Source: Cepaea nemoralis (Eukaryota > Mollusca > Gastropoda > Stylommatophora > Helicidae). Taken from it: 64,000 bases of DNA. Position numbers and translations under genes: made by a program. The notes beneath the pieces were generated by a model. It saw only the letters and a program-made list of their open reading frames with translations, did no database searches and was not told the DNA's origin. Numbering within the stretch: the first letter of the stretch is position 1; each line of letters starts with the position of its first letter. Positions 3,520 to 53,895 of the stretch are shown here, piece by piece. The DNA is taken from positions 5,001 through 69,000 of the forward strand of contig JACEFZ010017699.1 of NCBI GenBank assembly GCA_014155875.1, written 5' to 3'.

Positions 3520-3885
3520 TACACCGGCTCTGTGGCGAAACAGTTAAGTACACATGGCGTAATTCCGCATATCGCGTTTCGAACGCAGCTGCCGGCGATT
3601 TGGAAGCAGAAGAGCTTGTGATACCCGGGAAGGTTAATCCGGCCAACAAAACACCGCAGAAGACGGATGTGTCGGCCTAAGGCCGCAAATAAACTTGGCA
3701 CAAACGCAATTACATCTGGAAAAAAAAACACCCCCGATGAACTCAGAAGAAGAAGATACAGGTATGATTGCGATCATTCAGAAAGCAATGGCAAACTACT
3801 GAATGTAAACTTGCCATGAAATCACAAACAGCCACAAAATTCTGGGGTTGGCTGCGCTGTACTGTAAAGGGTATGCATCTAACTT
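3520..3885 (+). mobile_element. tRNA-headed SINE (head type a), with an internal insertion
   Basis: The left part (3520-3605) has a tRNA-like promoter: an A-box-like TGGCGAAACAGTTA and a B-box-like GTTTCGAACGC. The right part (3750-3885) carries the shared core AAAGCAATGGCAAACTACTGA and a tail ending with CTGTAAAGG. Relative to the copy at 18775 about 140 bp are inserted between head and core (roughly 3610-3755). Confidence 0.75.
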
Positions 3886-3978
3886 TAACCTATGCTGCAA
3901 TATAGACTTATGCAGTCATAATGAAACGAGTCAACATAATCATGTACCCATTTCCGCCTTTAGGCTCTCCCCCCCCCC

Positions 3979-4040
3979 CACACAACACACACGCACGCAC
4001 GCACGCACGCATGCACGCACGCACACACACACACACACAC
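3979..4040. repeat. (ACGC)n/(AC)n microsatellite
   Basis: A run of ACGC units passing into AC units, preceded by a C homopolymer near 3970. Confidence 0.95.
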
Positions 4041-5205
4041 TAAAAAATAACATCCCCACTGCAGGCGTCTGAAAGTGCCCCTCTGTCTTTGTGTGCATGT
4101 GTATCAATACTAGGTCTGTTAAAATAGTATAGGGCCGTTGGCTTAGACAAATACAACTACACACATGGAGTGTTGTTTCTTCCGCTATCTTTGAACTCAA
4201 GTGTAGTCCATACACGTGCTACGACTTATAGCGCACTGGACTGATATTTGCGTGTGGATTAGCATTCCCTGTTACCAGTGTCCCTCGCCGTCAGTCAAGC
4301 CCACTCCGTCTTCAGAGGTACTTGCAGTTTACATCCTCAAGTCAAGGACGAGAAGTCAACATTGTAGTCTAAATGACCGGTGTAGAGGTTGATCTAACTA
4401 TGTCGGCATTAGCACAATGGAAGTTTAAGAGCGAACGCTCTTATCCATGCGGCAAAGATGAATCCCCTTCAAACTACTCTCTTTGGGACTATACCTTCCT
4501 TACCCTGCCGTAGTGCCATCTTTGGAAGCGATTCAGGAAGTTCTATTTGCGAATGGATTACAGCTTGGCCGCCGTGTTCCGCATATTTTCTCCCGTGACT
4601 CAAACAAGGTTCCTTCAGTGTCATTATCAGTTTTGAGAACAGCTAAAAATCGCAAGGAGCCATGCCGTTAAAGTAGGGAACCTGACCAACAAGAAAAATA
4701 CTGTGGTTGGCCAAGACTAAATAAGATGAGAAAAATGGGCTAGTACGTGGTCATGGTGGAGCTCTGAATTCTTCATACCCCCAGATCGGTTCGTTCGCAT
4801 TCTCCACATGTGATTCAGACTTTCTTGGACAAACACACTATTACTTTAGTTGGTCTGTACAGAACGTGCAGAAAGGATAAAGATGTGTAGAGAGATATCG
4901 GATACAGAAAACTGTACTTTCTAGATGTGGCTGTCGTATAGTTCCTGTGGCCAAAGTTTGCCCATTTCTTCCCCTTATTCTTTGTTCACCTTTCGGAGCG
5001 AGTGCGTCAAACATAGTAATATAAACGCAATGGTCTTTGTACTTTCTGTCGGATGCCAGCGTTTGTATAAGTGACTCATAACCTACGTACAATACCAAGC
5101 TACCACTTATTATTCACTTTCAGTTCTGGTTTACTTTAGCAGAATATCTTCACGATTTACACGCGGTAGCCAAATACAATATGTTGTAGGATTTACTGCC
5201 TGACG
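4041..5205. other. Unassigned stretch, no gene recognised
   Basis: No convincing coding frame or repeat. The only local structure seen is a perfect 8-bp stem with a 2-nt centre, TAAGAGCGAACGCTCTTA, at 4426-4443. Confidence 0.5.
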
Positions 5206-5850
5206 TATCTCGCTGCATCTCGTCAGGTACATGATACATAGTTATATATTATATGTCGCTGCATCTCGTCAGGTACATGATACAGAGTTATATATTATAT
5301 GTCGCTGCATCTCGTCAGGTACATGATACATAGTTATATATTATACCTCACTGCATCTCGTCAGGTACATGATACATAGTTATATATTATATGTCGCTGC
5401 ATCTCGTCAGGTACATGATACATAGTTATATATTATATGTCGCTGCATCTCGTCAGGTACATGCTGCATAGTTATATATTATATGTCGCTGCATCTCGTC
5501 AGGTACATGATACATAGTTATATATTATATGTCGCTGCATCTCGTCAGGTAGATGCTGCACAGTTATATATTATATGTCGCTGCATCTCGTCAGGTACAT
5601 GATACATAGTTATATATTATATGTCACTGCATCTCCTCAGGTACATGATACATAGTTATATATTATATGTCACTGCATCTCGTCAGGTACATGATACATA
5701 GTTATATATTATATGTCGCTGCATCTCGTCAGGTACATGATACATAGTTATATATTATATGTCACTGCATCTCCTCAGGTACATGATACATAGTTATATA
5801 TTATATGTCACTGCATCTCGTCAGGTACATGCTGCATAGTTATATATTAT
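5206..5850. repeat. 46-bp satellite, ~14 units
   Basis: Unit begins CGCTGCATCTCGTCAGGTAC and ends in the AT-rich block AGTTATATATTATAT. The CATCTC word recurs every 46 bp from about 5213 to 5812. Units differ only by a few substitutions (ATGATACAT versus ATGCTGCAT, CTCGTC versus CTCCTC), indicating recent expansion or homogenisation. Confidence 0.95.
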
Positions 5851-6176
5851 ATTATTATATGCAGCCAAATATGCCAGGCAATACACAGTGCAACATATTG
5901 TCTGTGGCTTATGTGTTTACATCACTAAGGGAATATATTGTTTTGAATCTACACGATACTTCGATTTCGATGATACCATTACCCGTATCCGTTCGACCCC
6001 AAAGATAAGTTATATCAGGGTCCATCCCTGGCTCAGGTTAATAATCATGTGAGCGAGCCAGTCACAAATAGCCGCTGATCGCGGTTTTACACATATAGGA
6101 TATTAATTTGAAGGTGATTGTTGTCCAAAGAGGGCAATGGCTCTAACGCTTGACACGATTATTTTCTGAGCACTGG
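5851..6176. other. Unassigned stretch, no gene recognised
   Basis: Unique-looking DNA between two satellite blocks; no coding or RNA signal identified. Confidence 0.45.
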
Positions 6177-6649: not shown

Positions 6650-6661
6650 TCTTCTTAGATG

Positions 6662-7466
6662 ATTATGTGGTTGAGCACAACCCACTACTGGCAACGCCGA
6701 TCGCATTCTGGTATGAACCTAAGGCCTATCCACGTCAATATGGAAGCACTATACTCGAGTTTCGCCCTCATTTGAGCTCGTCAGTAGTGCATATCCCTGA
6801 CCGGATCCGGAAACAGTCCCGGATCACGCGTGTGAAGCGGGTGTGTAACCACGCGGCACACACTGGACACACCAAATTATCACAACAGAACATCACAATG
6901 CTACCCATCGTTGGCTATGCTCAAGATTGCCCAATCGCCGCGACCGACGTCCGTCAATCGATGGGACCCGAACGATCAGGACTTCTCACTGGCAAGGAAC
7001 ACCAGACCTCCTAAATCCAGTGAGCAATAATCAATTGATTATGTGGTTGTTTCGGGATTTGAAATTTAAATATTGAGCACAACCCACTACTGGCAACGCC
7101 GATCGCATTCTGGTATGAACCTAAGGCCTATCCACGTCAATATGGAAGCACTATACTCGAGTTTCGCCCTCATTTGAGCTCGTCAGTAGTGCATATCCCT
7201 GACCGGATCAGGAAACAGTCCCGGATCACGCGTGTTAAGCGGGTGTGTAACCACGCGGCACACACTGGACACACCAAATTATCACAACAGAACATCACAA
7301 TGCTACCCATCGTTGGCTATGCTCAAGATTGCCCAATCGCCGCGACCGACGTCCGTCAATCGATGGGACCCGAACGATCAGGACTTCTCACTGGCAAGGA
7401 ACACCAGGCCTCCTAAATCCAGTGAGCAATAATCAATTGATTATGTGGTTGTTTCGGGTTTCGGTT
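6662..7466 (+). mobile_element. Head-to-tail dimer of a 402-bp interspersed unit
   Basis: Two copies of the same unit lie in direct orientation: GAGCACAACCCACTACTGG starts near 6673 and again near 7075. Over about 350 compared bases I count only about three differences. The array is flanked by the 12-bp direct repeat TCTTCTTAGATG (6650-6661 and 7467-7478), consistent with a target-site duplication. The right end restarts with the unit's left terminus (ATTATGTGGTTGTTTCGGG). Related fragments occur at 51378-51490 and 54717-54927. The 115- and 80-codon frames inside have no recognised domain. The class is unknown. Confidence 0.75.
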
Positions 7467-7639: not shown

Positions 7640-9148
7640 ACAGATCCCTTCGGGGTCCTTGAATCAGGAATTAGGTTAGGGTATACTGCCGAGAAACTTT
7701 CAGAATGGGCACAAAAGACGCATTCAGAAAATATTGCACGAGAAGACAGAGCAACGGAAAGAGAAGAGAAAAAGATGCAAGCAGAAAGAGAAGAAAAAAA
7801 AGATGCAGATGCAAATAGAGGCTGAAGCGAAAAAGATGCAAGCGGAAAGAGAAGAGAAAAAGATGCAAGCAGAAAGAGAAGAGAAAAAGATGCAGATGCA
7901 AATAGAGGCTGAAGAGAAAAAGATGCAAGCGGAAAGAGAAGAGAAAAAGATGCAAGCAGAAAGAAAAGAGAAAAAGATGCAGATGCAAATGGAAGCTGAA
8001 GAAAAGAAAATGCAACTGCAGGCTCAAGAGAAGAAGATGCAAATGGAGCTCGAAGCTGCGACCAAGCAAGCCCAATTAACCGCAGACACACAGATAAAAC
8101 TGAAACAAATGGAAATTGACTTAGAAATTTCAGTAAACAAAAGTAAAAGTAAGGGAGAGGAACAAAAATACAACAAATATAAAGGCTTAGTCAAGCCCTT
8201 TTGTTCAGGAGATTCCATAAGCGCATACTTAGAGAACTTCGAGTGTTTGATGACTTACCATAACGTCGCAAAAGTCGACTGGGCATTTATTCTGATGAGA
8301 AATTTAGCATTAGAGCCCTTAAAAGTGATAGAGACAATTCCACAAGACATGAGGAGAGATTACAGCTATTTAAAACAAAGAATACTCCAACATTTTTCAC
8401 TAGATACAGCAGGCTATCAACTACAGTTTTCAAAATTAGCCCCATCACTTAACCAAACGTTCATAGACTACGTGTCCACAGTCCAAGATATTTGTACAAA
8501 ATGGATAACCTCAGCAAAAACAAATAACAGCTATGATAAACTAAAGGAGCTAATTATAATTGATAAAGTCATTAACACAATACCAACCCCTTTCTCTAAA
8601 TTTTTGAGACAAAATGATTGTAAGACTATCCAAGAAATAGAAATTAAGGGGAGCGCATATTTTACAGCTAATCGCGATATTTTTCAGCTAAATATGAGCC
8701 AAAATGAAACAGCAGCAGTTACAAACAACCAAATATTCAAAACCAAATGAAAATAGGTTCAAACAACGCCTTAAGTTCACAAAACCAGTCCTGTGTCAGT
8801 ATTGTCATCTAACACACGAACAGTACGCGATGTGTGATAAATCACCGAATTATCCACATCATCTCCAAATGATGGTGGAAAAACAAAAAAAACAAAACAA
8901 AAGGAACGCATATCAGAGAGCAGTTAAATGTTTTTTTTTGCGCCAGTTATGGGCATTTCTCAGGACGTTGTGAAGGGCGAAAGATAATGAAGCAGGCCAA
9001 TGCCGCATTAATAGATACATCGTCGGACGAAGAAACTGAACAACAGAACGAATGCGACATTCAGAATGAAAGTGCGAGTGAGTTAGGTAATGCGGTAGAT
9101 ATCATTAACACCATCACCGATAACAAATGTAACACCTGCAGAAAATTT
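7640..9148 (+). pseudogene. Gag of element 1 (frameshifted)
   Basis: The structural protein that would form the virus-like particle and bind RNA. An N-terminal segment near 7650-7740 leads into a long charged coiled coil of KKMQAEREE-type repeats (about 7750-8160). A capsid-like helical region follows at about 8170-8660, with LKQRILQHFSLD and an IIIDKVI segment. A zinc knuckle C-x2-C-x4-H-x4-C lies at 8929-8971. The frame shifts in an A8 run near 7792-7800, near 8740-8750, and in a T9 run at 8931-8939 that splits the knuckle. After the knuckle the frame runs on to a TAG at 9149-9151 and continues open beyond it into protease. The coiled-coil repeats are imperfect duplications at DNA level. 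Confidence 0.8.
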
Positions 9149-9151
9149 TAG

Positions 9152-9600
9152 CTTGATACCACTTTGTTATGCGGCCACACAATCCCAGTGTCTAACGAAA
9201 TGGCCAACGCAGCCTTAACATCAACAGGCAAGTTAAAGTTTGCAACAGGTTTTGTTAATAACAAACAATGTACACTAGTACGAGATAGCGGGGCGACTCT
9301 TTGTGGAATCAAAAGAACATTAATTAATGACAAAGACTACACACACAAATACGTAACATGTCGCACATTCGCAGGCACCATCGAAAGATACCCCCTAGCA
9401 CTGGCCGAAATTCGGTCACCTTTTATATCAGGACAAGTGCTATGCGCAGTACTTGAGAATCCTTGCGCGGAAATTATCCTTGGGAATCTTCCTAACATAA
9501 GATCCTGCTCTGAAGAAGAAATCAGAGAATGGGAACAGAAAAACTGTATCCAAAAAGCAAACAGTGGTTCCAGAATTATAATACACACTTGCATGTCTCA
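9152..9600 (+). pseudogene. Retropepsin-like protease domain of element 1
   Basis: An aspartic protease that would cut the polyprotein. The active-site triplet is D-S-G, in LVRDSGATLC, with the Asp codon at 9284-9286. The downstream flap-side motif EIILGNLP lies near 9465-9490. The region is open in the frame that follows the TAG at 9149-9151. The segment after protease (about 9600-9880) is polar, Thr/Asn/Glu-rich and looks like a linker before integrase. Family members usually have D-T-G or D-S-G, so the active site is intact here. Confidence 0.8.
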
Positions 9601-9889
9601 AACTGCCAAAAGCACAAGGGAGACAACCGATGACGGAATTCGAAACGAATTCACAGAGGTGGAGAACACAGCGGCGGTTGAATCGTTCAATGACACCAGA
9701 AAATTAACACCTAGAACTGAGGACGTCACCGAACCACAAAATATTGAGCCTGTAAATGTGCAACAACAGACACAATACGGTAATATAGTGACAAGACAAA
9801 TGACACACAAAACCCACAACGACCAACTTCAGGAGTCGCTACAAATCATTTCACCCAATATTACCACCACCGAGTTTATACAAGAACAA

Positions 9890-11110
9890 AAAGCAGATCC
9901 AACCCTTTCGCAATACTTTCGACTAATAGGATTGAAGCCAAAATTGACGAAAAACGCTTCCTGGACATTCAGACTAAATAACAATATTCTAACGAGGTTA
10001 TACACCAGAGGTCAAACCACGATACAACAAGTGGTTCTACCTCAGTCACATCGGGACAAAGTGCTTCATATAGCCCATGACTCACCTTTCGGAGGTTATA
10101 TGGGTTATGAAAAAACCAGGGCCAGAGTCCTGAGCCAATTTTATTGGCCTAAATTTTGCCAGCACATAAAAAACTATTGCAAATTCTGTGATATCTGTCA
10201 GAAATTAATTAAGAAGGGAAAAAAAAACCTACTGCAGAAATCCAATCAACCACAACGGCCTCAAGACCATTTCAAATAGTTGCGGTTGATTTAGTGGGTC
10301 CTTTAAACCACATTTCAAACAAAGGAAATAGGTACATTTTTACACTCGTGGATCTGTGTTCAAGGTGGGCAGAAATGATTCCGTTAAAATCAATCTCCTC
10401 TAAAGATGTGACGGACGTGTTTTTACAAATATTCTCCCGTTTTGGCTTTCCGGAGAAGATAATATCGGATAGAGGAACGCAGTTCATATCTAATGCCACT
10501 CAATCGGTAACTAAGTTACTCGGCATAAAACAATGTTTTACAAGCCCCTATCGACCGTCCGCGAACGGAATTTGCGAAAAATTGAACGGGGACTTAAAAC
10601 ATATGTTAGCCAAAGTGACACCTGAAAATCCAGCCGATTGGGATATGCTTCTCCCAACGGTGCTGTTCGCCTATAGAGAAGTGCCGCAGTCGAGCACTGG
10701 GTTCTCTCCTTTTGAATTAATATATGGAGCAAATCCAAGAGGACCTCTCTCTATGTACAGAGATATGATATCGCAAACCCGTAAACACCCAATTACCAGT
10801 TTCCACCTATGATTTGGTCACTGACACCAGAGACAAAATCATTAGATCCTGTATACTAGCCAGATCATCTTTGCAGGAGAAAGGTTTTATGTACAGGCAA
10901 TACGCCAACAAGGGTGCAAGAACCATTGTATTACATCCTAATCAAGAGGTGTTGTTATTATTACCTGACAAGAGAAATTTACTTTCAACCTCATGGCAAG
11001 GACCATTTAAAGTTATGAGAAGGATTTCGGAAGTTGACTACGAAATCTCTTTGAATGGCAAGTTGAAAATATTCCATGTAAATATGTTAAAACCTTACTT
11101 TTCTAGGAAT
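9890..11110 (+). pseudogene. Integrase of element 1 (upstream of RT)
   Basis: This enzyme would insert the cDNA into chromosomes. The N-terminal zinc region is at about 10060-10205, with the cysteine pair in FCDICQK. At the position where the related element 2 has G-H-M-G this copy has G-Y-M-G, so one zinc-binding histidine appears lost. Catalytic residues are D at 10288-10290, D at 10468-10470 and E at 10576-10578; the last two are 35 residues apart (DD35E). A GPF module (WQGPFKV) lies near 10996. A frameshift sits in an A9 run near 10220-10228, and another lies between about 10765 and 10805. The following 370 bp encode a Thr/Asn/Asp-rich spacer before RT. Confidence 0.85.
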
Positions 11111-11479
11111 GACAGTGACAGAAGCAATCAGACGGAGAAAACAGGGGACAATAACCAGACTGACAAGAACGACAACCAGAACGAAACGACAACTAGACAA
11201 TTGAACGACACTACTACAAATGAAAATCTAGACGAAGCATCATTAACGACTCATTCTTGTGACAACGAAGACGACGAAAACATGTTCACAGTACCGACAA
11301 TGTGTGATAACGACAAATACGACGAAGTTAACGATACATTAGCAACTATTATTCTGGACGATGACGGCAATGACATTGAAGACAATTTACAAACAGTAGC
11401 GTCAGTAATAAATCAGACGGACGTAGACAATACGGAAATTCCAGTACCAATCATGAACGATGACAGTACAATGAAGGAC

Positions 11480-12418
11480 ATACAAATCTTTGACACTTTG
11501 ACACAACAGCAGCGACAAGACATTTTGTCTCTTCTTAACGACTATAAAACTATCTTCTCAAACAAACCTGGACAGACTGATAAAATAACACATTCTATTA
11601 CTTTGACAGATCTAACACCGATCAAATGTAGACCATATTCAATTCCATTACATTATAGGGCAAATTTGGATAAAGAAATTTTAGACTTAGAAAAAAATAA
11701 AATCATACAGAAATCTGTGTCCCAGTACTCTTCGCCAATTGTTCTGGTGAAAAAGAAGGACCAAACTATTCGTTTATGCATAGATTACAGAAAATTAAAT
11801 ACTATAACAACGACAGATGCTGAGCCAATGTACAGCTGTGAAGACCTCATTTTGAATATGTCTCAATCATCCATTTTTTCTAAACTTGATTTAGTAAAAG
11901 GTTACTGGCAAATACCACTATCTCCCTCTTCAAGGCATATAACCGCATTCTCTACACCGCTTGGTCTGTATGAATGGAAATATCTTCCTTTTGGCCCAAA
12001 GAACGCTCCCGTTACATTTGTCAGATTAACTAGACTTTTATTGCACGGCATCAAGGACGTGCAATCATATATTGATGATATATGTGTCCATTCTTCAAAC
12101 ATGACTTCTCACTTAATTACACTCCGACAAGTCTTTAACCAAATCCTTCTTTTTGGACTTACTATCAAACCTTCCAAGGTGGAAATAGGCTATAAACAAA
12201 TAGACTTCTTAGGTCATAGGATTTCCGAAGGGAAACTATTGACAGATGATAGAATTGTATCAAAAATTCTGAACCTGCAAGTTCCAACTACAAAGAAACA
12301 GGTCAGAAGCCTTTTAGGTCTCATAAACTATTACGCCAAGTTTATACCAAACTGGGCAGAACTCACATCAATTTTTTTCCAACCTGTTGACAAAAGATCA
12401 ACAAGAAAAATTTTGTAA
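11480..12418 (+). pseudogene. Reverse transcriptase of element 1
   Basis: RNA-dependent DNA polymerase of Ty3/Gypsy type. Recognisable blocks in order: a fingers segment with RLCIDYRKLN near 11770, KLDLVKGYWQIPL near 11883, LPFGPKNAPVTF near 11985, the catalytic YIDD at 12068-12079, FLGHRIS near 12210 and a LLGLINYYAKFIPN connection near 12315. The reading frame is open through the whole domain, and all key residues visible to me are present. It ends by running out of frame in a T7 run near 12370, just before RNase H. Confidence 0.88.
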
Positions 12419-12887
12419 GAGTATCCGCTTAGAGGATGTAATGTGCAAATTGAAATCAATTTTTTCTAACCCACCCGTATTAAGATTACCAAACATAGAT
12501 ATACCTTTTATTCTGACCACAGATTCGAGTGCTATCGCAATTGGAGGATGCCTGATGCAGGAATATCAAGGCGTAAGACATCCAATACTCTATGTCAGCC
12601 GCAAGCTTAAAAAGGCAGAAATCCGGTATTCCACAGTTGAGTTGGAGGCATTAAGTCTACTTTTTTGTATGCATCGTTTATCTAAGTTCCTCTTAGGTTC
12701 CCATTTTGTTGTTTTGACCGATAATTCGCCACTGCAGGTACTGAAACAAGGCGTTCCAAAGAATCATCGATTAGCAAGATGGTGTCTTCTACTTCAGGAT
12801 TTCGACTTTGAAATCCGCCACATCAAGGGTACGGATAATATTATTGCTGACATATTATCACGGCAAACTAATGCACCAGCAGACTAA
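12387..12887 (+). pseudogene. RNase H domain of element 1
   Basis: Removes RNA from the cDNA hybrid. Acidic residues fall in TTDSSAIAIGG, STVELEALSLLF, LTDNSPLQVL and KGTDNIIADILSR, matching the four-acid pattern of Gypsy RNase H. The domain is open in its own frame but is offset by one from RT because of the T-run indel near 12370. It ends with a TAA shortly after the last motif, and no further domain follows, so RNase H closes the polyprotein. Confidence 0.87.
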
Positions 12888-17830: not shown

Positions 17831-18191
17831 TACGCCGTTTCTCTCATTTTCGATGATATCGTAAAACATAATTTTCTTGGAATCTGTAAAGAAAGTAGTT
17901 TACCATTGCTTTTCTTCCTAGCAGTGACCATACTTGTCAATGACCGTAGCCATTGTCCCCCCCCCCCTCCCCCCAAAAAAAAGAGATATCCTTCGCCTAC
18001 GGCCGTGAAGCTGGAGCCATAACCTGCAACTATCTGTCGGCGCTCTTCAACCTCATCCACCACCTGCACCCATGGCTTCACGTAACCCTGATCAGGAGGC
18101 TAAACGGGTACTCCAAGGGTGCCCTGTAGGCTAACGGAGGGAAGGAGGCATCTTACTTCTTTGATAGGGGATACCCCTACCCCGCTACCCG
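17831..18191 (-). other. LINE 5'-like region with a SINE-core remnant
   Basis: Reads as leader DNA upstream of the endonuclease frame on the minus strand. It includes a diverged core word (AAAGCAATGGTAAACTAC) near 17890-17920 and a C8/C5 homopolymer near 17957-17975. No intact coding frame. Confidence 0.4.
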
Positions 18192-18506: not shown

Positions 18507-18589
18507 CGTTTTAAATTGCTAGACTGAGTGGGTATCCCTTGGCCAACAGCAAAGAGCACCCTCTTGTCCCGGTGGATACTCACGTACCT

Positions 18590-18700
18590 TAAAATTGCAA
18601 GTCCTTTACAGAATGTTGCAATCGACCTCAGGTTAATTTTCTCGACAGGTGTATGTTCAGTTTGTCATTGCTTTCTGAACGACAAGCCAATGTTCAAATC
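18590..18700 (-). mobile_element. SINE remnant (core and tail)
   Basis: Minus strand carries the core GTCGTTCAGAAAGCAATG followed by a diverged tail with CTGTAAAGGAC. The head is not recognisable. Confidence 0.55.
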
Positions 18701-18774: not shown

Positions 18775-18985
18775 AGCACTTCGTAATTCCGCATACCCGC
18801 CTTCGAAACACAGCTGCGGGCGATTTGGCAGCAGACCGTCTTGCGTTGGTTTTTATGAAAAGGTATGGGTGCCGGTCGTTCAGAAAGTAATGGCAAACTA
18901 CTGAACGTAAACTTGCCCAGGAATCACGAACAGCCAAACAAATGCTGGGGTTACCTGCTACGTCCTGTAAAGGATATGAAACTAA
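18775..18985 (+). mobile_element. tRNA-headed SINE (head type a)
   Basis: Head with CCTTCGAAACACAGCTGCGG (B-box-like), a linker GCGTTGGTTTTTATGAAAAG, core GTCGTTCAGAAAG...AATGGCAAACTACTGA, and tail ending CGTCCTGTAAAGGATATG. A good reference copy for the family. Confidence 0.8.
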
Positions 18986-19019
18986 TTTTTTTAAATTCTT
19001 CGCTAATATTGGTGTCTAG

Positions 19020-34929: not shown

Positions 34930-34975
34930 GCTGATGTTGACAGCGATGTCCTGTAAAGGATATGCAAACATTTAT
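34729..34975 (+). mobile_element. tRNA-headed SINE (head type b), complete
   Basis: Same head and core as the copy at 34450, with the full tail TGACAGCGATGTCCTGTAAA then GGATATGCAAA. Highly similar to the nested copy at 52785-53034. Confidence 0.85.
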
Positions 34976-40974: not shown

Positions 40975-41160
40975 TTGGGAACACCTAGCTAATACCGTGT
41001 TATTAGCAGAAAGTGAGCAAGGCGGGGGAACAGATTGAGATCTATACAATAGGAGTCAGCCACAGAGAGAGTTGCAAGACCTAGTGGAAGAAGTAAACAG
41101 GCACAGTGCAGAATGGCTTGATATTAACATCCAAAAAACAACAACTATGATAATATAGTG
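40975..41160 (+). pseudogene. LINE RT fragment interrupted by one 37-bp satellite-like unit
   Basis: Encodes NTVLLAESEQ, then after an interruption LQDLVEEVNRHSAEW and DINIQKTTTMII. This is the segment downstream of the RT catalytic site, also seen on the minus strand at 53200-53360. Between the two halves (about 41012-41075) lies foreign DNA with TTGAGATCTATACAATAGGA and AGTCAGCCACAGAGAG, the unit of the arrays starting at 41814. Confidence 0.75.
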
Positions 41161-41424: not shown

Positions 41425-41620
41425 GTGGTAGCCGCCTTAGCGCAGCGACTAGCACGCCTGCCTGTCCGCTTGGCTGTTATGTGTTCGAATCCCCCTTCTA
41501 GCAAGGACTGTTTTCCACTGAGTTTTTGCTTCAAGATTGCCTAACCTAAATCCGGGACCAAAGAATTTTCATGCGATGTAAAGACAGCAGGCTGGTATAA
41601 TAATCCATCACCCTAACCAG
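41425..41620 (+). mobile_element. tRNA-like SINE head, separate family
   Basis: A-box-like CCTTAGCGCAGCGACTAGC and B box TGTTCGAATCCCCC, about the right spacing for a tRNA-derived promoter. The rest is unique within the window. A degenerate tRNA pseudogene is the alternative. Confidence 0.5.
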
Positions 41621-41813
41621 TGCCGGTCGTGTTACAATTATTGAGCTAGCACCATATACCCAGAGAGCAGCTAGAGGATTGGCTAGACTCTCGTCTGCTG
41701 ACTCGGTGGTCGGGGTCGATCCGCGTTGGGACGGATTTTGGATTTTAGTAATTGACCTGGACTTCCAGGTCTAACCCAACCTAAAATTAGGAATAATGAA
41801 CGTCTTTTGGAAG

Positions 41814-43005
41814 AAAAGCCACAGAGAGCAGGTTGATCTATACAATAGGAGTCTCACAGACAGCCGGTGATCTATACAATATGAGTCAGCCTCAAGAGCC
41901 GGTTTGATCTATACAACAGGAATCAGCCACAGAGAGCCGGCTGATCTATACAAACAGGAAGTCAGCCACAGGAGAGCCGGCTGATCTATCAACAGGATCA
42001 CCACAGAGAGCCGGTTGATCTATACAATAGATCAGCACAGACAGCCGGTTGATATATACAATATGAGGTCTGCCACAGAGAGCATGTTGATCTATACACT
42101 ATGTGTCTGCCACAGAGAGCATGTTGATCTATACAACTATGTGTCTGCCACGAGAGCCGGTTGATCTATACAATAGGAGTCAGCCACAGAGACGCCGGTT
42201 GATCTATACAATAGGAAGTCAGCCACAGAGAGCCGTTGATCTATACACTATGAGTCTGCCACAGAGAGCATGTTGATCTATACACTATGTGTCTGCCACA
42301 GAGAGCCGGTTGATCTATACAATATGAGTCGGCCACAGATAGCCGGTTGATCTATACAATAGGAGTAAGCCACAGAGAGCCGGTTGATCTATACAATAGA
42401 GTGCATCCACAGAGAGCCGGTTGAGCTATACAATAGGAGTCAGCCACAGAGAGCCGTTGATCTATACAATAGGAGTAGAGCCAGAGAGCCGGTTGATCTA
42501 ACAATAGGAGTTCAGCCACAGAGAGCCGGTTGATCTATACAATATGAGTCAGCCACAGACAGCCGGTTGTCTATAATCTATACAATAGGAGTCAGCCAAG
42601 AGAGCCGGTTGATCTATACAATAGGAGTAAGCCACAGAGAGCCGGTGATCTATATAATAGGAGTCAGCCCGGAGAGGCCGGTTGATCTATACATATGAGT
42701 CAGCCACAGACAGCCGGTGATCTATAATCTATACAATAGGAGTCAGCCACAGTGGCAGGTTGATCTAGAAAATAGGAGTAAGCCACAGAGAGCCGGTTGA
42801 TCTATATAATAGGAGTCAGCCACGGAGAGCCGGTTGAGCTATACAATAGGAGTAAGCCACGAGAGCCGGTTGATCTATACAATAGGAGTCAGCCACAGAG
42901 AGCCGGTTGATATATACAATAGGAGTAAGCACAGAGAGCGTTGATGCTATATAATAGGAGTCGCCACGGAGAGACGGTTGATCTATACAATATGAGTCAG
43001 CCACC
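41814..43005. repeat. 37-bp satellite array A (~32 units)
   Basis: Unit AGCCGGTTGATCTATACAAT plus AGGAGTCAGCCACAGAG. The succession of unit variants (CATGTT, GGCTGAT, CAGACAGCC) is the same as in array B, but many units here carry single-base indels. Confidence 0.93.
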
Positions 43006-43154
43006 GTATGCTCCTTTGACTTAAAGCGCGTAAAAGGGGTCGTATACTTTGTGTATTTGACTATGTACCCAATAGCCTCAAGGGTGAGCATGTTCCATTA
43101 TCTGTTTGTAACAGACCAAACTGCAATACACAAATTAGTCGAGGGTTAAGCTGG

Positions 43155-43770
43155 GTCTAGTATACAAGTAAATGGGAATATTCTTCAACAAGTGAATCGT
43201 ACAATTATCTCGGACAGTCATAACATCTGATGGGAGATGCCTTGAAGAACAAGAATCGCCATGGCGAAAGTAGCCTTTAGTAAGATGAAAAACATTCTGA
43301 CCAATAAAAAGATGTCATTGAAACGAGAAAAAGAGTGGTGGGGATACATAGAGCCTGTTCTTTTGTATGAATGTGAAACTTGGACAATGTGCAGCCAAGC
43401 TGAAAAACATCTGATGGCTGCAGAAATGTGGTTTCTGAGGAAATGCAAAGAATACCATGGACATACAGAAAAACCAATGACCAGTACTACAGGAGACAAA
43501 TGAAATCGTAAATTGATTAGAGAAATTAGACGTAGACAGTCAAAATATGCTTTGGACATGTTATGAGAAGAAATGGATCGGAGAACTTAGTGACAACTGG
43601 CAAGATCGAAGGGAACAGACCAAAGAGGAAGACCGAGAGGAAAATACCTGGATGGCTTGGCCACATGGCATGGACGAGACAGGAACACTGAGCTGATCCG
43701 AGACTCTGGTGATCGGGTGAAATGGGCGAGTCATGACCGCCCACGCTTTCCGGCATGGCACATGATTGAT
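43155..43770 (+). pseudogene. LINE 3' end in copy A
   Basis: Encodes the post-RT region: VNRTIISDSHNI-like start, MAKVAFSKMKNILTNKK, EPVLLYECETWTM, MWFLRKCKEY, and a Gly/Arg-rich segment to the FRHGT-type end. Frame breaks are frequent. The same family is at 45985-46610 and 48150-48735. Confidence 0.8.
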
Positions 43771-43919
43771 TGAATTGAGTATACTGCAACTTCGGGAAAG
43801 TTAACCTGGTCACAAATGCCTGAAGAAGTCGGACGTGTCTCGACCGAGAGGCGTAAATTCTCAGCTCTGCTGATAAGCGTGCACAATGCAGTTACGTCAG
43901 AAGAAAACATCGGACGAAC

Positions 43920-43982
43920 GAAGAGAGAAGAAGAAGAAGAAGAAGAAGAAGAGAAGAAGAAGAAGAGAAGAAGAAGAAGAAA
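43920..43982. repeat. (GAA)n microsatellite, copy A
   Basis: Interrupted GAA run; the equivalent run in copy B is longer and purer. Confidence 0.9.
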
Positions 43983-44624
43983 ATGAGTATATTGCAATCA
44001 CGTCAAGACGAGACCACCGGCTGTTTAGTCCATTAGTTAGTGCGTGATCCTGTAAAGTTTATCAAACAGACTCGATACATACGATGTGATACGGGTATCA
44101 TTATTGGCATGTTGATCTATATCACTGGAGCCTCGATATATGAAGCCCAAAAACGCACACTCCGACTGTTTATTGTTGACATCGACACCTCAAGGTACAA
44201 GAGGAATCTGATGAGATGAGATGAGATCTATATCACATACATGGGGGTGGGCAGGGGGAGGGCAGAGTGGTGTAGGAGATTGGGAGTTAAGAACGCGGTG
44301 TAGCGTAAAGAAAAAAATACCCTTTCTCTCACTATGGACGTGTTTCTGGTTTTGCTGCCCGTGCAATCTTTACGCAGTACACCCTCATCCTAAGTGAAGC
44401 AAAGTTTGTTGCATATCCGTTACGTCTTGGATCTGCAACATTAGTAATGCGGTTGTTTACCCAGTGAGCACTAGGGTGTAACTTAATTGTATGAAGGGCA
44501 AGATAATGGATCCTTTACGGTGGTCGGGGTGACCGCGTTGGGACGGATTTTGATTTTAGTAATTGACCTGGACTTCCAGGTCTAACCCAACCTAAAATTA
44601 GGAATAATGAACGTCTTTGGAAGA

Positions 44625-45838
44625 AAAGCCACAGAGAGCAGGGTTTATCTATACAATAGGAGTCTCCCAAAAGACAGCCGGTTTATCTATACAATATGAT
44701 CAGCCTCAGAGAGCCGGTTGATCTATACAACAGGAGTCAGCCACAGAGAGCCGGCTGATCTATACAACAGGAGTCAGCCACAGAGAGCCGGCTGATCTAT
44801 ACAACAGGAGTCAGCCACAGAGAGCCGGTTGATCTATACAATAGGAGTCAGCCACAGACAGCCGGTTGATCTATACAATATGAGTCTGCCACAGAGAGCA
44901 TGTTGATCTATACACTATGTGTCTGCCACAGAGAGCATGTTGATCTATACACTATGTGTCTGCCACAGAGAGCCGGTTGATCTATACAATAGGAGTCAGC
45001 CACAGACAGCCGGTTGATCTATACAATAGGAGTCAGCCACAGAGAGCCGGTTGATCTATACACTATGAGTCTGCCACAGAGAGCATGTTGATCTATACAC
45101 TATGTGTCTGCCACAGAGAGCCGGTTGATCTATACAATATGAGTCAGCCACAGATAGCCGGTTGATCTATACAATAGGAGTAAGCCACAGAGAGCCGGTT
45201 GATCTATACAATAGGAGTCAGCCACAGAGAGCCGGTTGATCTATACAATAGGAGTCAGCCACAGAGAGCCGGTTGATCTATACAATAGGAGTAAGCCACA
45301 GAGAGCCGGTTGATCTATACAATAGGAGTCAGCCACAGAGAGCCGGTTGATCTATACAATATGAGTCAGCCACAGACAGCCGGTTGATCTATAATCTATA
45401 CAATAGGAGTCAGCCACAGAGAGCCGGTTGATCTATACAATAGGAGTAAGCCACAGAGAGCCGGTTGATCTATATAATAGGAGTCAGCCACGGAGAGCCG
45501 GTTGATCTATACAATATGAGTCAGCCACAGACAGCCGGTTGATCTATAATCTATACAATAGGAGTCAGCCACAGGTGGCAGGTTGATCTATACAATAGGA
45601 GTAAGCCACAGAGAGCCGGTTGATCTATATAATAGGAGTCAGCCACGGAGAGCCGGTTGAGCTATACAATAGGAGTAAGCCACAGAGAGCCGGTTGATCT
45701 ATACAATAGGAGTCAGCCACAGAGAGCCGGTTGATATATACAATAGGAGTAAGCCACAGAGAGCCGGTTGATCTATATAATAGGAGTCAGCCACGGAGAG
45801 ACGGTTGATCTATACAATATGAGTCAGCCACCGTATGC
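44625..45838. repeat. 37-bp satellite array B (~33 units)
   Basis: Regular 37-bp step with few indels. Some units show the insertion ATCTATAATCTATAC, also seen at the corresponding places in array A. Confidence 0.95.
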
Positions 45839-45984
45839 TCCTTGTGCCTTAAAGCGCGTAAAAGGGTCGTATACTTTGTGTATTTGACTATGTACCCAAT
45901 AAGCCTCAAGGGGTGAACATGATTCCATTATCTGTTTGTAACAGACCAAACTGCAAATACACAAATTAGTCAGAGGGTTAAGCT

Positions 45985-46610
45985 GGGTCTTAGTATACAA
46001 GTAAATGGGAATATTCTTCAACAAGTGAATCGGTACAATTATCTCGGAACAGTCATAACATCTGATGGGAGATGCCTTGAAGAACAAGAATCGCCATGGC
46101 GAAAGTAGCCTTTAGTAAGATGAAAACATTCTGACCAATAAAAAGATGTCAATTGAAACGAGAAAAAAGAGTGTTGAGGTGATACATAGAGCCTGTTCTT
46201 TTGTTATGGAATGTGAAACTTGGACAATGATGCAGTCCAAGCTGAAAACATCTGATGGCTGCAGAAATGTGGTTTCTGAGGAAAATGCAAAGAATACCAT
46301 GGACATACAGAAAAAACCAATGACCAAGTACTACAGGAGACAAATGAAAATCGTAAATTTATTAGAGAAATTAGACGTAGACAGTCAAATTTTTTGGGCA
46401 TGTTATGAGAAGAAATGACTTGGAGAACATAGTGACAACTGGCAAGATCGAAGGGAACAGACCAAAGGAAGACCGAGAGGAAAATACCTGGATGGCTTGT
46501 CCACATGGCATGGACGAGACAGGAACACTGAGCTGATCCACGACACTGGTGATCGAGTGAAATGGCGAGTCATGACCGCCCACGCTTTCCGGCATGGCAC
46601 ATGATTGATG
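45985..46610 (+). pseudogene. LINE 3' end in copy B
   Basis: Same family and position as 43155-43770. It includes the ILQQVNRYNYLGTVITSDGRC block near 46010, followed by MAKVAFSKMK. Indel positions differ from copy A in both directions, so neither copy is error-free. Confidence 0.8.
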
Positions 46611-46759
46611 AATTGAGTATACTGCAAATTCGGGAAAGTTAACCTGGTCAACAAATGCCTGAAGAAGTCGGACGTGTCTGACCGAGAGGCGTAAATATCG
46701 CAGCTCTGCTGTAAGCGTGCACAATGCAGTTAACGTCAGAAGAAAACATCGGACGAACG

Positions 46760-46827
46760 AAGAAGAAGAAGAAGAAGAAGAAGAAGAAGAAGAAGAAGAA
46801 GAAGAAGAAGAAGAAGAAGAAGAAGAA
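46760..46827. repeat. (GAA)n microsatellite, copy B
   Basis: About 22 uninterrupted GAA/AAG units. Confidence 0.95.
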
Positions 46828-47263
46828 TGAGTATATTGCAATCACGTCAAGACGAGACATGGCTGGTTTATTCCATTAGTTAGTGCGTGATCCTGTAAAG
46901 TTATCAAACAGACTCGATACAATACGATGTGATACGGGTATCATTATTGGCATGTTGATCTATATCACTGGAGCCTCGATATATGAAGCCCAAAAACGGC
47001 ACACTCCGACTGTTTATTGCTTGACATCGACACCTCAAGGTACAAGAGGAATCTGATGAAGATGAGATGAGATCTATATCACATACATGGGGGTGGGCAA
47101 GGGGAGGGCAGAGTGGTGTAGGAGATTGGGAGTTAAGAACGCGGTGTAGCGTAAAGAAAAAAATACCCTTTCCTTCACTATGGACGTGTTTCTGGTTTTG
47201 CTGCCCGTGCAATTCTTCGGCCGTACACCCTCATCCTAAGTGAAGCAAAGTTTTAGTTGCATA

Positions 47264-48068
47264 TCCTTTACATCTTGGATCTGCAACATTTAGTAGATGC
47301 GGTTGTTGTACCCAGTGAGCAACTAGGGTTAGACTTAAATTGTATGAAGGACAAAGATAATGGATCCTTTACATCTTGGATCTGCAACATTTAGTAGATG
47401 CGGTTGTTGTACCCAGTGAGCAACTAGGGTTAGACTTAAATTGTATGAAGGCAAAGATAATGGATCCTTTACATCTTGGATCTGCAACATTTAGTAGATG
47501 CGGTTGTTGTACCCAGTGAGCAACTAGGGTTTAGACTTAAATTGTATGAAGGCAAAGATAATGGATCCTTTACATCTTGGATCTGCAACATTTAGTAGAT
47601 GCGGTTGTTGTACCCAGTGAGCAACTAGGGTTAGACTTAAATTGTATGAAGGCAAAGATAATGGATCCTTTACATCTTGGATCTGCAACATTTAGTAGAT
47701 GCGGTTGTTGTACCCAGTGAGCAACTAGGGTTAGACTTAAATTGTATGAAGGCAAAGATAATGGATCCTTTACATCTTGGATCTGCAACATTTAGTAGAT
47801 GCGGTTGTTGTACCCAGTGAGCAACTAGGGTTAGACTTAAATTGTATGAAGGCAAAGATAATGGATCCTTTACATCTTGGATCTGCAACATTTAGTAGAT
47901 GCGGTTGTTGTACCCAGTGAGCAACTAGGGTTAGACTTAAATTGTATGAAGGCAAAGATAATGGATCCTTTACATCTTGGATCTGCAACATTTAGTAGAT
48001 GCGGTTGTTGTACCCAGTGAGCAACTAGGGTTAGACTTAAATTGTATGAAGACAGAGATAATGGATGT
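47264..48068. repeat. 100-bp satellite, 8 units
   Basis: Unit starts TTTACATCTTGGATCTGCAA and contains ATGCGGTTGTTGTACCCAGT. Starts at about 47267, 47368, 47468, 47569, 47669, 47769, 47869 and 47969. Units are almost identical. Open frames across it are periodic artefacts. Confidence 0.96.
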
Positions 48069-48149: not shown

Positions 48150-48735
48150 TTCAAATTGGGTGTAAATGAGGATATTCTTAAACAAGTGAATCGGTACAAC
48201 TATCTCGGAACAGTCATAATATCTGATGGAAGGTGTCTTGAAGAGATTATAATAAGAATAGCTATGGCAAAAGTTGTGTTTTGCAAGATGGAAAACATAC
48301 TGACTTATAAAAAGATGTCAATTGCAAGGAGAAACAGAGTGTTGAAGTGGATTTTTGTAAGGATGTGAAGCGTGGGCAATGAGCAGACAAGCCGAAAACA
48401 TCTAATGATAGTCGAAATGTGTGTTCTGAGGAAAATCCAAAGAATACTAAGGCCAGACAGAAAAATCGATGAGTAAGTTCTACAAGAAGCAATGAAACCC
48501 GTAAACTGATTAGAAAAATTAGAGTAGACACCATTTTTTGGACTCGTTTTGAAAAGACGTAAAATAAAGAACTTGGTGACAACTGGCAAGGGAAGGCAGA
48601 GACGTAAATATCTAGATGGCTTGGCCACGTGGCATGGTCGAGATAAGAACACGGAGCTGATCAACGATTTTGGTGATCTTGTGAGATGGCGAAACATAAC
48701 CGCCCACTCTTATCGGCATGACACGTGATGTTGAT
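48150..48735 (+). pseudogene. LINE 3' end, third copy
   Basis: ILKQVNRYNYLGTVIISDGRCLEE near 48175, MAKVVFCKMENILTYKK near 48265, and a terminal YLDGLATWHGRD-like segment near 48610. Diverged from the copies at 43155 and 45985, so it is an independent insertion of the same family. Confidence 0.78.
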
Positions 48736-48769
48736 ATCATTTACATTAAGTCGCAGTCAATCCCTGCAT

Positions 48770-48945
48770 TGCTTGGCTGTTTGTAAATTCTTGGCATTGC
48801 TTTCGGAACGACTGACACTCATACCATTTTATGAAAACCAACACAAGGCGATGTACAGCCAAATCGCTCGCAGCTGTGTTCCAAACGTGTTATGCGGGAA
48901 TACGAACTGCGCCTGTAAACCCGTCGCCACGGTGCGTAAAAATAA
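48770..48945 (-). mobile_element. tRNA-headed SINE (head type a), minus orientation
   Basis: Minus strand: head with ATTCCCGCATAACACG and GGAACACAGCTGCGAGCG, linker TGTGTTGGTTTTCATAAAAT, then a core variant with AAAGCAATGCCAAG. Confidence 0.7.
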
Positions 48946-49839: not shown

Positions 49840-50094
49840 GGTTGCCGATCCGTGGTCTGCGTGTTCTGTCGTGCCCACGCAGTTCGTAATCCTGAATACC
49901 GCTTTCGAAACACAACTGCGGGCAATTTGGCAACAGAACGTCTAGCGTTGGTGTTTTATGAAAATTGTAGGAGTGCCGGTGGTTCAGAAAACAATGGCAA
50001 ACTACTGAACGTAAACTTACCAAGAGAAAACGAACAGCCCACAAATGCTGGGGTTGACTGCTACGTCCTGTACAGGATATACAACAACTATTAG
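49840..50094 (+). mobile_element. tRNA-headed SINE (head type a)
   Basis: Head with CTTTCGAAACACAACTGCGG, linker GCGTTGGTGTTTTATGAAAA, core CAGAAAACAATGGCAAACTA and tail TACGTCCTGTACAGGATATA. Confidence 0.8.
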
Positions 50095-50684: not shown

Positions 50685-50692
50685 CTCTAGAT

Positions 50693-51210
50693 CTACCCGG
50701 CCTGAAATGGGTACCTGGAAATGTATTGGGAATAAATCCGGCCGGCGTGGTACTGACTGCATCACCCACCGAGTACTGATTGGTCTATGAAAGTACATGT
50801 CTAGCACCATATTTCCAATGCGCCTTGACGAGTGTAAAAGAGTTATTTGTTGCTTTTGTTTTAAAATAAAAATGTTTCAACAGCTTCATTGACTCCCAAC
50901 CGATTAATTTTATGGGCAACATCCACCACAGTTAGAATCGTTGTAACATACAAGTAAAAGATAGGTCAAGATTCCGTAAAGAAAGAGCTAGCACAAACAC
51001 ACGTACAGGCGCTAGAAGTACCCAGGGCATATAGTGACATCACAGACCACGCTTTAACGTACCCCATCTTATGAATTAATAGGAGAATATATGAGACAAA
51101 TGGTAGTTGAAGAAAGGGTGGGGAGGGGGCGGGGTGGTATAACAACCACTAAGAAAAGCCGGCGTCTGTAGGGAAGGGATACCGAACACGTTTCACAATC
51201 CCTCCCTCTC
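50693..51210. other. Unassigned stretch
   Basis: No recognised coding or repeat content. Confidence 0.4.
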
Positions 51211-51214
51211 AATC

Positions 51215-51345
51215 CCACACAACCCGTTGGAAATCAACTGCGGGTGACTGGAAGCAGATCGCTTTGCGTTGGTTTTTAACAATGAAGTGATTGTTGGTCG
51301 TTCTTAAAGCAATGGTAAAATACTGAACGTACGATTGTCTAGAAA
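51215..51345 (+). mobile_element. SINE (head type a), diverged
   Basis: AACTGCGGGTGACTGGAAGC, GCGTTGGTTTTTAACAATG and the core variant AAAGCAATGGTAAAATACTG. It ends in a C17/A9 run at about 51348-51374. Confidence 0.65.
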
Positions 51346-51377
51346 ATCACCCCCCCCCCCCCCCCAAAAAAAAATGT

Positions 51378-51490
51378 TGATTTATTTGGTTGTTTCGCGA
51401 TTTGAGGTGTAGAGATTGACCACAACACACTACTGGCAACGATGATCGTATTCCGGCACGAACCTTGGCTCTTGTCCACCTCAGATGTGA
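51378..51490 (+). mobile_element. 402-bp family fragment (left part)
   Basis: TTGATTTATTTGGTTGTTTC then CACTACTGGCAACGATGATC, the left terminus of the unit seen at 6662-7466. Confidence 0.65.
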
Positions 51491-51496
51491 AAAATA

Positions 51497-51700
51497 AATT
51501 TGTTGCGTATCCTTTAAAGGACGTCGCAGTAAACCCCATCATTTTTTGACTGTGATTTCTTGGCAAGTTTACGTTCAGTAATGTGCCATTGCTTTCTGAA
51601 CGACCGGCACTCATAACGTTTTATAAACACTAACGCAAGTCGGTTTGCTGCCAAATAGTTGGCACGTGTTTCCAACGCTGTATGCTGGATTACGAGCAAG
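51497..51700 (-). mobile_element. tRNA-headed SINE (head type a), minus orientation
   Basis: Minus strand: linker GCGTTAGTGTTTATAAAACG, core GTCGTTCAGAAAGCAATGGC, tail with GTCCTTTAAAGGATACGCAA. The head is degraded. Confidence 0.75.
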
Positions 51701-52075
51701 TAGAAAATTATAAACAGCCAAAAATGGTGGGGTTGATTGCCTTGCCCTGAAATGAACATGCAACTAACTTTTTTAAGCTAACAAAAGTAACAATGAATAC
51801 CTGAAATCACGCACACATGTCTTAGGTTTTAGGTTATAACAACTTTCGCCAAGAACAATACAAACATGACTTATAAGACAATTATTTTAAATAATAACTT
51901 ACCATATATGAACACCAAACACAACTGATTTTACAAAAAGGAAGTATTAACCTACGTCTTTGCATTTTATATTGTCAAGTTGCAGTCAAGATACTTCTTA
52001 TAAGTGAATCACGTGTTTTGAAAGCACATAAGTTGTCAGCATATCAACATCTGACAATGTGTGAGTACTAAAATT
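51701..52075. other. Unassigned stretch
   Basis: Unique-looking, apart from a fragment near 51700-51775 that again resembles a SINE tail (GCCAAAAATGGTGGGGTTGA). Confidence 0.4.
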
Positions 52076-52316
52076 AGTTGCATTTCCTAAAGAGGAAGTC
52101 GTAGTCAAACCAGGCATTTTTAAAAACTGTTTGTGTTTTCTTTGCAAGTTTACGTTCAGTAGCTTACCATTGCTTTCTGAACGACCGGCACTCACACTAC
52201 TGCATGAAAACCAACGCAAGGCGTCTGCTGCCAAATCACCCGCAGCTATGCTTCGAACGCAATATGCGGAATTACGAATTGTAATCGTAACCCCTTCGCA
52301 ACAGCGCCGGCTACCT
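52076..52316 (-). mobile_element. tRNA-headed SINE (head type a), minus orientation
   Basis: Near complete on the minus strand: head through GCGTTCGAAGCATAGCTGCG, linker GCGTTGGTTTTCATGCAGTA, core GTCGTTCAGAAAGCAATGG, tail TCCTCTTTAGGAAATGC. It abuts a short AATC run and the LINE that follows. Confidence 0.8.
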
Positions 52317-52784
52317 AATCAATCAATCAATCAGGTGCCGTCTCCGCAATGAAGGTTGGCTGCAATGGATCTCCAACACTGTCTGTCTCTCGCCTTAACT
52401 GTACATTCTGTCAGGCTGATGCTCATCCATCTCTTGATGTTATCCTCCCACTTGTATCGTTGTCCACCTCTTGCTCGCTTGCCCTCAACCTTGCCTTCCA
52501 GTATGGTTTTTATAAGAGTACCATGTCTTTTAACGTGGCCAAAATATTTCACTTGTCACCTCTTTATTTCTTTCATCAACTCTCTCTTCATTCCCAGTTT
52601 TTCTAGAACCTCTGCATTTGATTGTTTTTGTTTCCATGAAATACGACCTATTCGTCTGTATATCCACATCTCCAGGGCTTCTATGCGACTTTCTAGTTGC
52701 TTGTTCAATGTCCAGGCTTCCGAGCCATACAGTAGCGTTGAATATACGTAGCATACTCATTTTTAATGCGTTGTTAATCTCTCT

Positions 52785-53034
52785 GCCGGTCTCCCTGGTC
52801 TAGGGGTTATCAGCTTTCTTCGTAACCCCGAATACTCTCGTGGTTGGCGTCAGCGCACGAGAATTGGAAGCGGTTCGAGTCGCGCCAGTGACTTATGAGA
52901 GTATGGAGCCGATCGCCCAAAAAGCAATGGCAAACTACTGAGCGTAATTTTGCTAAGAAATCAACAATCAGCTGAAAGATGCTGATGTTGACAGCGATGT
53001 CCTGTAAAGGATATGCAAAAGATTTTTTTTTTTA
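52785..53034 (+). mobile_element. Complete SINE (head type b) nested in LINE with 11-bp duplication
   Basis: A box TGGTCTAGGGGTTATC, B box CGGTTCGAGTCGCGCC, core AAAAGCAATGGCAAACTACT, tail ATGTCCTGTAAAGGATATGC, then an A/T run. Flanked by TTAATCTCTCT at 52774-52784 and 53035-53045. LINE coding continues on both sides. Confidence 0.92.
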
Positions 53035-53675
53035 TTAATCTCTCTAGATGTTAATACTGATTTCATGCCGTTGAAAGCATTTTTAGCCATTCCTATTCGC
53101 TTTTTGATTTCCATTTTACTTCTGCCATCACCTGTTATATGTCCAAGATAAGAGAAACTTGTTACTTGTTCTAGTATCTGCCCATTTACAGCGATGTTCA
53201 TTGATGGCCTTTCCTTTTCACTGCTAATTATCATAGTTTTTGTTTTTTGGATGTTAATATCTAAGCCACATTCCGCACTGTGCCAGTTTACTTCTTCCAT
53301 TAGGTCTTGCAACTCTTGCTCACTTTCTGCTAGTAACACGGTATCGTCAGCATATCTAAGATTGTTTATTTTTCTTCCATTGATAGTAAGTCCAGGCATT
53401 CCAACGTGTTTAAAATTTTTTTATGTGTATAGGATGAAGAGGCTTGGGGATAGTACACATCCCTGCCGTACTCCTCTTTTATCTCTATAGGCGACGAATA
53501 GTTATTACCGCATCTAATAGACGCCACTTGTTCCCAGTACAAGTTACTAGTAAGTCTGATGTCCTATATCTTGAAGGCACGCAATAAGTCGTTCATGTTG
53601 TACTCTATCAAAAGCTTTCTTGTAGTCTATAAAACAAACATATATACTTTTTTGAACTTCTATATATTATTATTA

Positions 53676-53895
53676 TAGCCGGTCTCTGTGGCTAAGGGCT
53701 TGCGAACGCGGTTTGTGAGTCCGTATACCTGGGTTCGAAACCCAGCGGTGCTGGTTTTTCGGAAAAGGTATAGGGGCCGGTCGTTCAGAAAGCAATGGCA
53801 AACTACTGAACGTAACACTTGCCTAGAACATCAACAGCAGCTGAAAATGCTGGTGTTGACTGCAACGTCCCGTAAGGGATACGCAACAAAATTAA
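53676..53895 (+). mobile_element. Complete SINE (head type c) nested in LINE
   Basis: Best promoter in the window: A box TCTGTGGCTAAGGGC and B box TGGGTTCGAAACCC. Then GGTGCTGGTTTTTCGGAAAA, core GTCGTTCAGAAAGCAATGGC, and tail CGTCCCGTAAGGGATACGC. It interrupts the RT between the FRKN and FIDYKKAFD blocks. A 7-bp ATATATT repeat at the flanks is a possible target duplication. Confidence 0.88.

Follow-up and report, generated by a model that had tools for sequence, protein, structure and literature searches.

What is the conserved core that recurs on both strands of a 64,000-nucleotide stretch of Cepaea nemoralis DNA (contig JACEFZ010017699.1, positions 5,001 to 69,000; the window), and where does it come from? 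The core belongs to short interspersed elements (SINEs), whose fuller copies run in the order head, linker, core, middle part, tail and A-rich or T-rich end. An initial annotation had proposed a SINE superfamily with one common body and tail, which is right, and had treated the core as an independent SINE domain. We found instead that the same element is part of the 5' untranslated region (UTR) of long interspersed elements (LINEs) of the RTE type, in two families called here LINE A and LINE T. Since the core stands at the starts of these LINEs and most of the SINE tails resemble the end of LINE T, we conclude with good confidence that the elements are transfer RNA (tRNA)-headed, bipartite RTE-derived SINEs of the known Bov-tA type.

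The core and its place in RTE-type LINEs

Searching both strands of the window for the 21-mer AAAGCAATGGCAAACTACTGA, at three mismatches or fewer, gave 13 core matches, compared to none in 100 shuffles. The repetition on both strands that had been reported, at about 15 copies, is therefore real, and the observation is confirmed in part. A profile built from all 13 core matches found 16 stretches in the window at E<1e-7. Since that profile contained every match, a second one was made from 10 SINE copies, and it recovered the held-out copies at 51306, 26791, 18689 and 48823 with 38.8, 34.8, 29.2 and 22.0 bits, respectively. The genome, 26,579 contigs totalling 3,472,891,610 bases, was searched for the core with three mismatches allowed. 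Near matches numbered 295,498 (147,296 + 148,202), a figure that pools LINE T cores with SINE copies; the reversed-pattern control gave 30. An unselected sample of 200 kb (the first 10 kb of 20 contigs) held 35 body hits at E<1e-3, partial hits included, or about one per 5.7 kb. At this level the SINE has hundreds of thousands of copies, in a genome that is large and snail-like.

One core in the window does not belong to a SINE. That core, at 17868-17926 on the minus strand, is part of a decayed RTE LINE and stands in its 5' UTR as AGGAAGA-loop-CTTTCTT, with 9 nt between TTCC and an ATG. Directly behind it stands a broken endonuclease-type open reading frame (17843-17184, minus strand) with 75% identity to a protein of the land snail Bradybaena similaris, followed among named matches by a sea-slug protein (51%). 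The frame has no Pfam match. Two earlier ideas on the host, a polyneopteran with Pln-SINEs and a cephalopod with Ceph-SINEs, were given up in view of this best match to a land snail. Genome-wide, LINE A is represented by many open frames of 962 amino acids, from a search with 105,927 first-look candidates, 125 of them scored. The sequence AAAGCAACGGCAAACTA, which is the SINE loop with one letter changed, stands shortly before the ATG in all nine LINE A 5' ends fetched. AGAGG stands on one side of it, replaced by GGAGG in a single copy, and CCTCT on the other; the LINE A cores score only 9.4-13.0 bits against the SINE profile. For LINE T, eight 5' stretches were fetched: two were N, one was another LINE, one lacked an endonuclease frame and four were informative. 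All four reach the gene start, and the core is present in each (17.5-26.6 bits). Genome-wide, 1,032 exact copies of the LINE T core including its stem were counted, compared to 0 for the control. In both families the core ends 9-17 nt before the start codon. The SINE body thus has a counterpart at the 5' end of an RTE LINE in every informative LINE A and LINE T case. Elsewhere in the genome (G000:C2007:289118-322564), LINE T cores follow one another at steps of ~2.7 kb along a single strand, apart from an initial gap of 6 kb, which looks like a tandem array of LINE T copies.

These matches could also arise if the core had been a SINE domain of its own, comparable to CORE, V, Nin or MESC, and had passed from SINEs into LINEs. 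The numbers lean in that direction, with 295,498 near matches of the SINE form (LINE copies included) compared to 1,032 exact LINE T cores, although the two counts differ in strictness, and the SINE and LINE stems are not alike. However, the core occupies the same place before the ATG in two distinct RTE LINE families, A and T, and the decayed third LINE copy in the window carries it as well. A ruminant motif discussed below, presumably Bov-A/Bov-B sequence, also resembles the SINE body. SINEs with RTE 5' ends are, moreover, tabulated in the portion of PMC3747384 consulted. When the SINE body was aligned locally with a sequence of the MIR CORE domain, one of the named domains that the initial annotation had listed for comparison, no match to the CORE sequence used was obtained (score 14, reached by 168 of 500 shuffles; reverse, 154 of 500). 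We consider a free-domain origin improbable, and favour descent of the core from the LINE 5' UTR.

Viral contigs gave no match to the 21-mer core, to a Bov-like pattern or to relatives of the endonuclease; three viral-contig matches to a looser core pattern were seen in no SINE or LINE context and were taken as chance. Prokaryote contigs gave no match at first and then two RTE-like contaminants (L004 and L005), in whose upstream bases, just 79 of them in L004, no core was found by eye. A protein search with the SINE translated in six frames returned no match.

A fixed loop in a changing stem

The LINE T core has the form CAGAAGG-AAAGCAATGGCAAACTA-CCTTCTG and the SINE core the form CGTTCAG-AAAGCAATGGCAAACTA-CTGAACG. 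Their loops are identical at 17 of 17 positions and their stems at 4 of 14, and five of the seven stem pairs are kept by two-sided changes. This fixed loop, with a stem that changes in matched pairs between SINE and LINE T, is the new observation here. Across five families (SINE, LINE T, LINE A, the window LINE and a motif from a goat paper), 32 of 35 stem positions pair. When the 3' strands were exchanged among the families in all 120 assignments, only the true one reached 32/35. A four-helix structure on 14 aligned copies (13 SINEs and one LINE) has 90.4% of its cells paired and seven two-sided pairs, which none of 500 shuffles equalled. Paired change in the stem together with a fixed loop suggests a selected RNA fold. 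A ribozyme identity of the core was considered and dropped, with no Rfam match at the core.

The pairing might instead be an effect of alignment or ancestry, the core being conserved as sequence only. Several results are in keeping with this and weigh against a selected fold. Related sequences can beat shuffles without any structure, and single-sequence folding energies are ordinary (z from -1.54 to +0.47), with stem 1 present in the minimum-energy structure of four of seven valid sequences, a set that leaves out one further segment lacking the 5' strand. Two of the seven two-sided pairs depend solely on the LINE row. A pseudoknot would be formed by the second helix, GGCAA/TTGCC. That helix has only one two-sided pair and is imperfect in the LINE copy at 17892; it is fully paired in 26 of 33 copies, in a regular-expression survey that itself selects for the partner box. 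On the other hand, controls in which the 14-copy structure was slid along the alignment drop to 24-42% paired, and exchange of strands between the five families leaves 2-6 of 7 pairs compared to 6-7 for the true strands. An ancestry effect therefore seems to us an unlikely source of the pairing, and we retain the reading that the fold has been selected.

What the fold does is a separate matter. It could serve translation of the LINE, through start-site selection or internal entry, with the SINE having inherited it as a passenger. This is the main rival to recognition by the LINE protein because the core ends so close to the start codon, at the 9-17 nt given above for LINE A and LINE T and at 9 nt in the window LINE. 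Yet the SINEs have no reading frame, and changes in stem 1 are nevertheless paired in the copy at 3782, in the type b copies and at 26791, some of these copies mismatching at other pairs. Five two-sided changes also separate the SINE stem from that of LINE T. A translation role is possible, but we give it clearly less weight than recognition by the LINE protein, for which the core fold is perhaps a binding element of the reverse transcriptase.

R2 offers a functional parallel. In the model described in PMC6895275, the LINE protein binds motifs near both ends of R2 RNA, and these determine in which order cutting and synthesis take place. Mutation of an R2 3' pseudoknot costs it its function, which compensatory changes restore (PMC12180492); for one R2 protein, on the other hand, the 5' UTR may be dispensable (PMC12222951). 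R2 resembles the present elements, by analogy only, in that integration is guided by RNA structures close to both ends of the LINE; it differs in belonging to another LINE group with another endonuclease. The fold described here is a specific candidate for LINE-protein binding outside the R2 group. Among the literature matches listed, none joined a pseudoknot with the term Bov-B, most subscription papers lying outside that search.

The tail, a probable partner LINE and known relatives

The SINE tail carries a TCCTGTAAAGGA-like hairpin. A tail model searched against the sample and the window gave 13 tail matches at E<1 with no core nearby, and four of these (L010, L025, L027 and L033) are the 3' end of LINE T. 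The LINE T gene ends in ...GARFCKGHATE, followed by TGAA repeats, and its 3' end, such as GGTCCTGCAAAGGACATGCTAC, aligns to SINE tails. In a first test of 20 comparisons, nine were reached by 0 of 500 shuffles, seven by 1 to 41 and four by 237 to 411. A cleaner test compared nine window tails with four LINE T ends cut at the repeat, using 1000 shuffles for each of the 36 comparisons; 16 were reached by no shuffle and 22 by at most 10. The resemblance to the LINE T 3' end thus appears to hold for most, not all, of the SINE tails tested, the type c copy 53789 being without it. On contigs C541 and C984 a LINE T core lies ~3.1 kb upstream of a LINE T C-terminal match on the same strand, and therefore both ends belong to one LINE. 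Together with the core and tail matches, this spacing indicates that both SINE parts have counterparts at the two ends of a single LINE. LINE A ends differently, its stop codon being followed by TGAT repeats unlike the SINE tail. In LINE A (L035) and LINE T (L025) the stop codon merges into the TGAT or TGAA repeat, which leaves almost no 3' UTR. Within the window, self-comparison at E 1e-6 showed no partner LINE with the SINE tail.

We consider a three-part SINE the most probable explanation of these data by a wide measure. Its first part is a tRNA-derived head for RNA polymerase III (pol III). The second is a core that RTE/Bov-B-type LINEs also have, in the 5' UTR immediately ahead of the start codon, and the third is a short 3' tail that contains a small hairpin and matches the end of LINE T. 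The SINE would have descended in its body from a LINE, would be transcribed by pol III from the tRNA-type head, and its RNA would be copied by the reverse transcriptase of LINE T, which would recognise the shared tail. SINEs of this kind are generally modelled in this way, with pol III transcription and copying by the reverse transcriptase of a partner LINE. Retention of the core is probably due to the fold of its RNA, a stem or possibly a pseudoknot that the LINE protein would use as well; a similar role has been proposed for the protein-binding motif at the 5' end of R2.

Some of the evidence speaks against this explanation. The tail match is short, ~24-26 nt, and uneven. LINE T ends score just E 0.0035-0.26 against the tail model, one of the nine comparisons at 0 of 500 shuffles (53789 with L033) falls outside the tail, and six of the 36 cleaner comparisons were reached by more than 50 of 1000 shuffles, including all four for 53789. 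The window LINE core (17912, minus strand) scores 11.3 bits (E 0.013) with the 10-copy profile, which is not significant alone, one match in 100 shuffled windows outscoring it at 11.9 bits. The SINE stem is unlike those of LINE A and LINE T, and the direct donor may therefore be a third LINE. The Rfam tRNA model found no match anywhere in the window. Target-site duplications of at least 10 bp were found by script at one of nine elements, with 8-9 bp at two others and none at six.

Elements of similar construction are known. In Table 1 of PMC3747384, in the portion consulted, Bov-tA is entered under tRNA-Glu and Bov-B, and Bov-A2 under '5'-end of BovB'. The ruminant Bov-tA, Bov-A2 and Bov-B elements are thus like the present ones in having a tRNA head (in Bov-tA) on a body related to an RTE-clade LINE; they differ in head and host, and Bov-B is represented here by two published 30-mers. 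The same table lists RTESINE1 and MAR4 of opossum and wallaby and RTE1-N1_LA of elephant as RTE 5'-end elements, which share an RTE 5' end as body and are listed without a tRNA head. In hagfish, SINE2-9_EBu and SINE2-10_EBu carry parts similar to the 5' UTR and 3' UTR of RTE-4, according to the text seen of PMC7245038, so that both UTRs of one RTE LINE are represented in the SINE; that source places them among UCON3-domain SINEs, and our likening rests on its description.

Six core and tail strings were searched in literature text, and only the Bov string matched. The sequences in question, AGGAAATGGCAACCCACTCCAGTATTCTTG and TTGCCATTTCCTTCTCCAGGGGATCTTCCT, we take to be Bov-A/Bov-B sequence, and the promoters that hold them to be goat. 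Both come from a table of motifs in a vaccine study concerning a virus of goats and sheep (PMC4337102, seen in part). Joined at their overlap, they match the SINE body with a score that 8 of 2000 shuffles reach, and LINE T with one that 9 of 2000 reach; against LINE A no alignment rose above chance (315 of 2000). The joined motif has six of seven stem pairs, and compared with the SINE it is identical at 7 of 14 stem and 13 of 17 loop positions. This likeness is suggestive of, but not proof for, a very old RTE element. On a bolder view, which we hold only tentatively, RTE/Bov-B-type LINEs from molluscs to ruminants would share a 5'-UTR RNA knot, its loop fixed and its paired stem free to vary, as their own reverse-transcriptase recognition element, and SINEs with knot and tail would spread by satisfying both ends. 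The changing stem may serve as a family tag.

SINE superfamilies with a shared central domain include MESC. Others named in the excerpt of PMC8010984 are V, Deu, Nin, Ceph, Meta, Inv, Pln and Snail, and that excerpt also cites the view that SINE bodies derive from the 5' regions of LINEs. By description, MESC, Snail (mollusc), Ceph-SINEs and MetaSINEs resemble the present group in that several SINEs carry one central domain. The preferred three-part origin would explain where one such 'mystery' core comes from, and lends support to the published idea of LINE 5' ends as the source of SINE middle bodies.

Copies, promoter heads and neighbouring repeats

The heads are tRNA-derived and carry pol III boxes. 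At least four distinct types, a to d, had been described on the common core. Types a, b and c proved to be one diverged head, joined by intermediates, and exchange of heads is real for type d, a second, rarer head. Head d (26676-26887, plus strand) is also used by another SINE family, in which it stands before another body (L025:8922 and 9427, L020:4261, L028:5798, L021:3265 minus, L029:2168, L031:3960). Head a occurs on the plus strand at 18775-18992, 49840-50094, 51158-51370 (diverged) and 3520-3884, where extra sequence separates head and core (core 3782-3802, tail 3861-3876), and on the minus strand at 51490-51695, 52067-52312 and 48721-48925, the last with its core partly deleted. Head c is found at 34238-34450 (minus) and 53676-53895 (plus). 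In the latter, stem 1 pairs 53782-53788 with 53806-53812 around the loop 53789-53805, and GGCAA (53797-53801) faces TTGCC (53819-53823). Two copies with head b on the plus strand form a tandem duplication: the first (34450-34650) has lost its 3' end, the second unit spans 34729-34970, and a 12-bp repeat, TATATTTAATAT, read directly at 34442 and 34982, brackets the pair. A third head b copy (52785-53030, plus) is inserted in an RTE LINE fragment and flanked by an 11-bp target-site duplication, TTAATCTCTCT (52774-52784, partner 53035-53045), which fits target-primed insertion. A diverged core with tail (18587-18693, minus; the held-out match at 18689) and a partial body with tail (51697-51776, plus) are also present.

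The window holds further repeats. At 41430-41560 another tRNA-like head, with the B box GTTCGAATCCC, apparently belongs to a further SINE family. A 37-bp minisatellite occupies 41817-43004 and 44627-45831, with a single unit at 41039-41069; within its unit, the opening 16 bases of the SINE head can be read in reverse complement (~15/16 by eye), suggesting that it was seeded by a SINE 5' end. A tandem duplication of ~2.9 kb, 94.6% identical, covers 41704-44518 and 44518-47372. Related repeats at 6671-7458, 54731-54929 and 51377-51465 include a 402-bp tandem dimer that matches the type I hammerhead twice (31.7 bits and E 0.0006, short of the curated cut-off of 34) and looks like a retrozyme-type element; for a related repeat at 54879-54808 the resemblance is to another hammerhead family (E 0.55). 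Two Ty3/gypsy-like elements were recognised by eye at 7680-12887 and 59552-63270, and the open reading frame at 59552 matches the SCAN domain slightly below its cut-off.

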